From Truepera sp. (GTDB lineage Bacteria; Deinococcota; Deinococci; Deinococcales; Trueperaceae), in contig JAVSMU010000001.1 of NCBI GenBank assembly GCA_032027045.1, positions 627,846 through 662,845 of the forward strand: a stretch of DNA of 35,000 nucleotides, in the 5' to 3' direction. Under the pieces are notes generated by a model, which was not told the origin of the DNA, searched no databases, and was given only the letters and a program-made list of their open reading frames with translations. Below are positions 1,144 through 8,242 of this stretch, in pieces. Every line of letters begins with the position of its first letter. Position 1 is the first letter of the stretch. Made by a program: the position numbers and the translations under genes.

Positions 1144-1607
1144 GCGGATCTCGCACAGCTTCACGCGTGAGCGATGGCCGGGATTCGTGCCTTCTTCCGA
1201 AATGTCCGGGCGACTAGCCAGTCAAAACAACTTGTGGCAGATGGGGTAGGTGCACCGAGGCCTCCTAGGCTGGAAATCGCGTCCGCAACGAGACCCCGCA
1301 TCAAGACAATCGACCGCTACTACCGCTGGTAAAACGTTTCGGCCCTCTAATAGCTTGGTTCAGGTTGGCGCGTCAAGCCGGTCCGCGGGGCAACCGCCGA
1401 GCTGGATCCTGAGCGGATTACCTCGGGCGCCAGACTAGCACCTGGAACGCCGCGCTAACCGTTCTTTGGGCTCGTATCCGCACAGCGATACAGGAGCCTT
1501 TAGGCCAAGGCGCTTGGCCCATGCCCCATGTATCGTCATTGCTACATGGGAGGTCTTTGCGCCTCAGAAGGGGAGACCGGGCGCTAGACCCGTGAGAGGA
1601 TGGGAGC
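1144..1607. other. Non-coding gap after the AbiE pair
   Basis: This gap of about 460 bases holds no frame that looks like a protein. The open frames across it have no Shine-Dalgarno, no recognisable domain and unnatural composition (rich in Arg, Ser and Pro). The only clear structure is two adjacent perfect hairpins at 1503-1519 and 1525-1550. No tRNA, transposase remnant or target-site duplication was recognised. Confidence 0.6.
1503..1550. other. Two adjacent perfect hairpins
   Basis: The first hairpin is GGCCAAG-GCG-CTTGGCC at 1503-1519, a 7-bp stem with a 3-base loop. The second is CCCATGTA, ten bases, then TACATGGG at 1525-1550, an 8-bp stem. A weak T-rich tail (TCTTT) follows. They could be a terminator pair, part of a small RNA, or a remnant of a mobile element end. 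They lie about 360 bases beyond abiEii, which is far for its terminator. Confidence 0.4.
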
Positions 1608-7112: not shown

Positions 7113-8066
7113 TCACGCCGTAGGCGGCAACCCCTCCGGGTGCGGCGGCTCTTGCGGCTTTCCCCACAACAGCGACGCCACGACGCTCACGATCAAGATA
7201 CCTATGACAACGCCCAGCGAGACCAGGCTGGGGATGTGGAAGACCTCGATAATTAGCATCTTGATGCCGATGTAGACGAGGATGAACGCCAGCCCGATCT
7301 TGAGGTAGACGAAGCGGTGGACCACGTGCGCCAGCAGGAAGTACATGGACCTCAGCCCGAGCACCGCCATGATGCTGGCGGTGAACACGATGAACCCGTC
7401 TGTCGTGACGGCGAAGATGGCAGGGATCGAGTCGACGGCGAACAGCAGGTCGGTGAACTCGATGACCACGAGCACGAGCAGGAGAGGCGTCGCCATGCGG
7501 ACACCGTCCTTGACGGTGAAGAACTTCTGGCCATCGTACTCGGCCGACACGGGCATCAGGCGGCGCACCAACCTCAGGGCCGGGTTCTTCTCCAGGTCCT
7601 TCTCGCCCTCACCCTTCTGGAACAGCATGCGCAGGCCGGTGAAGAGCAGGAAGGCACCGAAGACGTACAAGATCCAACTGAACGCCTCGATCAATGCCAC
7701 GCCGACCAGGATCATGATGCCGCGCAGCACCAACGCGCCCAGGATTCCCCATAGGAGCACGCGCTGCTGGTACTTGAAGGGCGTCTTGAAGTAGGCGAAG
7801 ACGAGCACGAACACGAAGATGTTGTCGACGGACAGCGACCATTCGAGCACGTATCCCGTGATGTACTGGACCGCCTTTTCGGAGCCCAGCCAGAAGTGGA
7901 ACGCCAGCCCGAGCAGGAGCGATAGGCTCACCCAGACCACGGTCCAGAAGGCCGCCTCCTTGGGCTTCACGATGTGCGCCTTGCGTTGGAACACGCCCAG
8001 GTCGATAGCGAGCATGGCCACTACGAAGGCGATGAACGCGGGCCAGGCCCATAGCGGTTCGGTCAC
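7113..8066 (-). CDS. TerC/Alx family membrane protein under a manganese-type riboswitch
   Basis: This 317-residue integral membrane protein of the TerC family, Alx-like branch, has about eight or nine hydrophobic helices. Two signature acidic segments stand out: EWSLSVDNIFVFVLVF near residue 75 and FTDLLFAVDSIPAIFAVT near residue 210. Related proteins are manganese exporters that also serve secreted metalloproteins. It starts with GTG 8066, and GGGAGG lies about five bases before it. The leader contains a yybP-ykoY-type riboswitch whose last helix strand touches this ribosome binding site. The gene is therefore probably induced by Mn2+ at the level of translation. A degV gene follows about 20 bases later. 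A second TerC paralogue lies at 28644-29405. Confidence 0.93.
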   Translation of the reverse strand: MTEPLWAWPAFIAFVVAMLAIDLGVFQRKAHIVKPKEAAFWTVVWVSLSLLLGLAFHFWLGSEKAVQYITGYVLEWSLSVDNIFVFVLVFAYFKTPFKYQQRVLLWGILGALVLRGIMILVGVALIEAFSWILYVFGAFLLFTGLRMLFQKGEGEKDLEKNPALRLVRRLMPVSAEYDGQKFFTVKDGVRMATPLLLVLVVIEFTDLLFAVDSIPAIFAVTTDGFIVFTASIMAVLGLRSMYFLLAHVVHRFVYLKIGLAFILVYIGIKMLIIEVFHIPSLVSLGVVIGILIVSVVASLLWGKPQEPPHPEGLPPTA

Positions 8067-8076
8067 GACGACCTCC

Positions 8077-8175
8077 CGTTAGGGTCTTGCCTTCTCGTAC
8101 GCCACCGGGCAGCCGATGACTGCCGTGTTGACGATGGCGAACTCCCGGGGTGCGGGCGGCTACTCCCCCTCAACG
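8077..8175 (-). promoter_or_regulatory. yybP-ykoY (manganese-sensing) riboswitch
   Basis: Read on the minus strand, the leader has the class hallmarks in order. GGGGAGTAGC lies at 8168-8159, a GTCAACA loop motif at 8132-8126 and GGCAAGACC at 8091-8083. The outer helix P1 forms between CGTTGAGGG (8175-8167) and CCCTAACG (8084-8077), with one G-U pair and one bulged A. The 3' strand of P1 runs into the GGGAGG ribosome binding site of the TerC/Alx gene, which fits translational control. yybP-ykoY RNAs bind Mn2+ and typically precede exactly this gene family. I fitted the helices by eye and did not run a covariance model. Confidence 0.85.
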
Positions 8176-8182
8176 AAGGGCC

Positions 8183-8188
8183 ACTGTA
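8183..8188 (-). promoter_or_regulatory. -10 box for the riboswitch-terC transcript
   Basis: TACAGT on the minus strand (8188-8183) matches TANNNT. Transcription starting about seven bases downstream would begin at 8176 or 8175, exactly the first base of riboswitch helix P1. No convincing -35 box is seen. Confidence 0.5.
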
Positions 8189-8242
8189 ACCCGGGCGCCC
8201 GCACCATGTAACCTAAGGCCGGTCGTTCGAATCCGCTGGCAG

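Follow-up and report, generated by a model that had tools for sequence, protein, structure and literature searches.

The terC gene of Truepera sp. starts only 17 nt downstream of the GAC of a candidate metal-sensing aptamer, and the question raised by this locus is how a riboswitch could control translation or transcription over such a short distance. The window, i.e. the whole stretch of DNA analysed here, comprises 35,000 nucleotides (contig JAVSMU010000001.1, positions 627,846 to 662,845); coordinates refer to it, and the features described lie on its minus strand. The gene itself (7113..8066, GTG start at 8066, 317 aa) was recognised by Pfam as TerC with an E value of 1.1e-51, which bears out the target gene assigned earlier from the letters of the window.

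Architecture and class of the terC leader

Read in the 5' to 3' direction of the minus strand, a TACAGT box, the L1 motif, GTCAACA, GGCAAGACC, GGGAGG and the GTG start codon follow each other. The L1 region GGGGGAGTAGC (8169-8159) carries the L1 sequence typical of yybP-ykoY RNAs, GGGGAGUAGC (8168-8159), with the motif GGGAGUA (DNA GGGAGTA, 8161..8167) invariant across the alignments. The L3 motif GUCAACA (GTCAACA in the DNA) is located at 8132-8126 and its adenosine is invariant in the alignment. The 3' motif GGCAAGACC (8091-8083) closes L1, and the aptamer precedes a manganese transport gene, as expected for the class.

The helices could be placed by folding, by the match to the covariance model described below and, in most cases, by covariation. 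The 5' strand of P1.1, CGUUgAGG (CGTTGAGG), occupies 8168..8175, and position 8167 closes the helix on L1. The 5' strand of P1.2, GCC (8158..8160), pairs with 8091-8089; it is followed by the P2 hairpin CCCG/CGGG (8144..8156) and by the P3 hairpin (8100..8139; CGCCAUCG/CGGUGGCG and GGCAGUC/GGCUGCC), inside which the L3 loop UCAACAC (8131-8125) is found. The 3' strands of P1.2 and P1.1, together with the 3' side of L1, form one continuous segment, GGCAAGACCCUAACG (8077..8091), referred to below as the switch strand, and the last base of this segment is also the first of the Shine-Dalgarno sequence GGGAGG (8072..8077).

The sequence-only reading had assigned the leader to the yybP-ykoY class and had regarded an Rfam score below the gathering threshold as evidence to the contrary. 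Such a score was in fact obtained: no match reached the gathering score of 45 in the search of the window with RF00080, and in a local search the leader received 13.3 bits (E 0.11). However, the validated member mntP of E. coli also stayed below this threshold (41.6 bits), E. coli alx was absent from the RF00080 matches at E 10, and relatives with perfect motifs received 14.7-33.9 bits. Since mntP fails too, the gathering score was dropped as a yes/no test of membership, and the class assignment stands. The P1 pairs are absent from the printed alignment of RF00080 (177 positions); the long 3' part of this family in Rfam 15 appears to be misaligned, without P1.

A covariance model, R1, was therefore built from eight leaders of similar length from outside the genus of the window, with P1.1, P1.2, P2 and P3 written in. 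The underlying alignment, A2, replaced a MAFFT alignment of 21 leaders, A1, in which the 3' side of P3 was misaligned. R1 scored the leader at 69.9 bits, with an E value of 1.3e-15 for the window and of 1.1e-13 for the whole genome; the whole-genome search revealed no second copy, every other match having an E value of 3 or worse. E. coli alx (E 2e-4) and mntP (E 7e-4) were also detected by R1, which ties the model to the known class.

The leader is kept in all six genomes of the genus. An aptamer match was found in 13 of the 39 genomes of the family and in 53 of the 111 of the phylum, and of 30 TerC-family loci retrieved at the outset, 28 had the motif upstream. When 27 distinct leaders were aligned, 89.1% of the cells could pair, compared with 66.3% in shuffled and at most 47.7% in slid alignments. 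Two-sided changes were observed at 4 of the 5 pairs of P1.1 and at 24 of the 30 pairs of P1.1, P1.2, P2 and P3 taken together, a number reached by none of 500 shuffles. The leader (8175-8067) thus belongs with near certainty to the yybP-ykoY Mn2+ class. It is hardly credible that the leader matches by chance or represents a degenerate, functionless relic: the Rfam score below the gathering threshold speaks for this view, but the E value of 1e-13 with R1, the conservation in six species and the covariation already contradict it. A fixed Rfam threshold overlooks validated and high-GC members of the class, thus the Mn2+ riboswitches of Deinococcota are probably under-counted. The aptamer as such is ordinary; it is the layout of the leader which is unusual.

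Promoter and predicted start of the transcript

The -10 box TACAGT (8183..8188) begins 21 nt 5' of GGGAGTA, and TANNNT occurs in many relatives at the equivalent position. In 37 of 57 dereplicated loci, spanning several phyla, TANNNT begins 21-17 nt 5' of GGGAGTA, while about 3 would be expected from the background. A -10 box placed directly before the aptamer is, in terms of sequence, a rule for the class and no peculiarity of the window. A possible weak -35 element, TTACAT (8206..8211), lies 17 nt 5' of the -10 box and matches TTGACA poorly. A generic sigma-70 scan called no promoter here because a good -35 element is missing, and the evidence for the promoter is therefore comparative. The predicted transcription start falls on the first base of P1.1 or beside it (8174..8176), 6-8 nt past the -10 box, so that the terC RNA would begin at P1.1 or within 1-2 bases of it. 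The earlier proposal that the promoter is positioned to let the RNA begin with this helix is supported by the fixed distance in the relatives.

A direct repeat, GGTTACA, was noticed at 8213-8207 and 8191-8185 of the same strand, the copies being 22 bp apart; the first overlaps the weak -35 element and the second the -10 box. A similar first copy is present in the relative L004. The repeat may represent an operator or a variant of the promoter.

Proposed control of translation by the terC codons

In the class, Mn2+ stabilises P1.1 and blocks strand invasion of its 3' half, which gives ON switches (PMC6754395), and translation of E. coli mntP is switched on by Mn2+ (PMC9603457). At the present locus we infer from the class and from folding where transcription starts, that Mn2+ is sensed and that the switch acts in the ON direction. 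The reading that we prefer, with a probability of roughly 0.6, is that the terC mRNA opens with a Mn2+ aptamer which acts as a translational ON switch and uses the terC codons as sequestering arm. When Mn2+ is scarce P1.1 would be open, and its 3' strand GACCCUAACGG, the Shine-Dalgarno sequence and the start codon would form one arm of a hairpin and the first terC codons the other, so that ribosomes would be excluded. Mn2+ would dock L1 onto L3 and thereby stabilise P1.1; the hairpin would thus lose its lower arm, and what remained would be a weak GGUC/GACC stem that the ribosome could open. TerC would then be made, and manganese would be exported or loaded onto exported proteins. With a gap of just 17 nt from GAC to the start codon, the leader cannot accommodate an expression platform of its own, and the coding sequence would perform that role.

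The predicted hairpin of the Mn-free state (8041..8091) pairs GGC.AG.CCCUA.CGG..GGUC with GACC..CCG.UA.GGG.CU.GCC in terC codons 1-9, the partner varying with the coding length included in folding. In the unconstrained predicted ensemble it takes in both the Shine-Dalgarno sequence and the start codon. When the aptamer was forced, the computed cost of opening these two elements in the window decreased from 11.8 to 7.0 kcal/mol, as given by thermodynamic folding, which leaves out co-transcriptional folding and tertiary docking. The direction of this change was shared by the remaining five members of the genus and by L008, while in L007 it varied with the start site. In the window the sign was constant over 24-90 nt of coding sequence with a margin of 0.4-5.3 kcal/mol, and the main pairing partner shifted once the coding part included in folding exceeded 50 nt. 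Pairing of GACC and GGUC between the aptamer and the Shine-Dalgarno sequence was also considered as the main switch and was dropped, as it is not conserved in L006-L008.

The contact between P1 and the ribosome binding site had earlier been taken as the basis of translational control. Translational control is retained here, but the contact as the switch is not: an extended P1.1, stabilised by Mn2+ over the GGG of the Shine-Dalgarno sequence, would hide this element in the presence of Mn2+ and turn the exporter OFF, contrary to what has been published on the class, whose members switch exporters ON (PMC6754395, PMC9603457). P1.1 can indeed be extended to G8077, and further if transcription starts upstream, but with the predicted start the Shine-Dalgarno sequence would for the most part stay outside P1.1, and the computed opening cost decreases, not increases, in the aptamer state. 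This mechanism is therefore improbable. Even less probable is control of transcription instead of translation by intrinsic or Rho-dependent attenuation. Terminator-like hairpins follow the aptamer in most relatives (other phyla, Thermus/Meiothermus-type genomes), but no terminator-like site was found after the aptamer in the window, where only 17 nt remain before the start codon.

It is also conceivable, though rather doubtful, that the ON logic holds while a local hairpin at the start codon (predicted as GGUC-GUCGU-GACC with CGG/CCG) is alone responsible for sequestration and the extended coding arm is incidental. Codons 2-5 of terC (ACC GAA CCG CTA) are identical in five species of the genus. 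CTA represents 6% of the Leu codons, and this position is the sole one of 40 conserved Leu sites at which all five species use CTA. The duplex of the switch strand with the codons in the window has an energy of -10.0 kcal/mol; 260 of 1,000 shuffles were equally low, and it ranks 74th of 266 along the gene. Against synonymous codons the window was significant when 45 nt of coding sequence was included (7/600) and not when 30 nt was included (104/400), and this loss of significance, like the presence of the short hairpin in every predicted ensemble of the window, is in line with a purely local hairpin. However, the short hairpin forms in the aptamer state too, so strong switching would not be expected from it by itself, and the matched complementarity at other compact loci would be left unexplained. 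The stability of the local start-codon region, compared with synonymous codons, showed no general effect, and most species were less stable than the null. For the window locus alone, the coding arm is moderately supported by these computations. Under the preferred reading with the codons as sequestering arm, the platform of the window is probably unusually compact and translational and uses the gene's own codons.

Compact leaders and comparison with known systems

The compact set was defined as every locus found with 16-26 nt from GAC to the start codon, i.e. the six genus members, L007-L010, L012, L013, L018, L047, L052 and L057. The loci were chosen by this gap and not by complementarity, although pairing in several of them had already been seen beforehand. 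In 12 compact loci the energies of the switch strand with the codons of its own gene summed to -143.6 kcal/mol, as compared with -108.8 +/- 7.3 for permuted partners, and none of 20,000 permutations was as low as the matched sum. The match survived most coding-window and switch lengths as well as the removal of the window locus, and it weakened with an 18-nt switch strand and a 60-nt coding window. The 13 long-leader loci showed no match to their own genes (14,425 of 20,000 permutations as low).

At individual loci ACUCAAAUCGG forms 11 perfect pairs with CCGAUUUGGGU in L013, and CCGAGAACG forms 9 perfect pairs with CGUUCUUGG in L057, while AGACCUGAAG makes 10 pairs with CUUCGGGUUU in L052 and 10 pairs with CUUUGGGUUU in L008; the pattern was not seen in L010 and L012. 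Of all these loci, L013 and L057 give the clearest prediction of a coding arm. Several of the genes at the compact loci are unrelated: besides terC they include a Zn_peptidase_2-type gene (L047), a Meiothermus-type gene (L057) and, in L052, a short reading frame. For the compact group as a whole, support for the coding arm is good. We lean, if only slightly, towards the view that Deinococcota possess a compact type of Mn2+ riboswitch which lacks a platform of its own, its switch strand pairing with the codons of the controlled gene (terC, Zn_peptidase_2-type and others), with which the coding sequence would have co-evolved. A literature search, with subscription journals mostly outside its scope, found no coding-region arm in the yybP-ykoY class. 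Provided that the coding arm exists, installing a riboswitch would take almost no extra sequence, the first residues of the protein (the conserved Pro-Leu-Trp of TerC) would be part of the switch, and codon choice would be tied to metal sensing.

In L018 (~1316-1440, plus strand) a small reading frame of 40 codons and of membrane type lies between the riboswitch and terC. The codons of the small reading frame pair with the switch strand, an arrangement hinting at translational coupling.

The L. lactis yoaB and X. oryzae riboswitches (RF00080) have the L1, L3 and CAAGACC motifs and the junction architecture in common with the window, and likewise a covarying P1.1 switch helix and a Mn-related target. 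They switch, however, by strand invasion from a downstream terminator, whereas in the window a terminator is missing and the start codon is reached after 17 nt. The aptamer class is also the same in mntP and alx of E. coli, both being matched by R1; alx is a TerC-family gene, and a translational ON switch, as proposed for the window, has been reported for mntP. In these two genes the start codon lies more than 100 nt beyond the aptamer, in contrast to the 17 nt of the window, where the codons are likely to be the sequestering arm. The terC riboswitches of Thermus/Meiothermus-type genomes and Chloroflexota share with the window the aptamer, the TANNNT box directly 5' of it and the TerC-family target, but have platforms of ~40-100 nt and, unlike the window, terminator-like hairpins that reuse the 3' strand of P1.1. 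Among L074-L151, 25 of the 78 loci were TerC relatives that carry the same aptamer and come from Chloroflexota and other phyla; in these, 55-116 nt lie between GAC and the gene match, often with terminator-like hairpins.

Other types of genes were also found behind the aptamer. In Thermus-type genomes (L058-L060, L066, L161-L167), where a terminator-like hairpin accompanies it, and in L047 of Trueperaceae, where the leader is compact, a Mn2+ riboswitch is located directly 5' of a gene for a Zn_peptidase_2 (PF04298) membrane metallopeptidase. This suggests that the 'zinc' peptidase may be a manganese-linked enzyme. In L049, L051 and L053, all from one genus of the family, a Mn2+ riboswitch precedes a gene of the sodium/calcium exchanger family (PF01699, checked on L049) with a gap of 33-36 nt.
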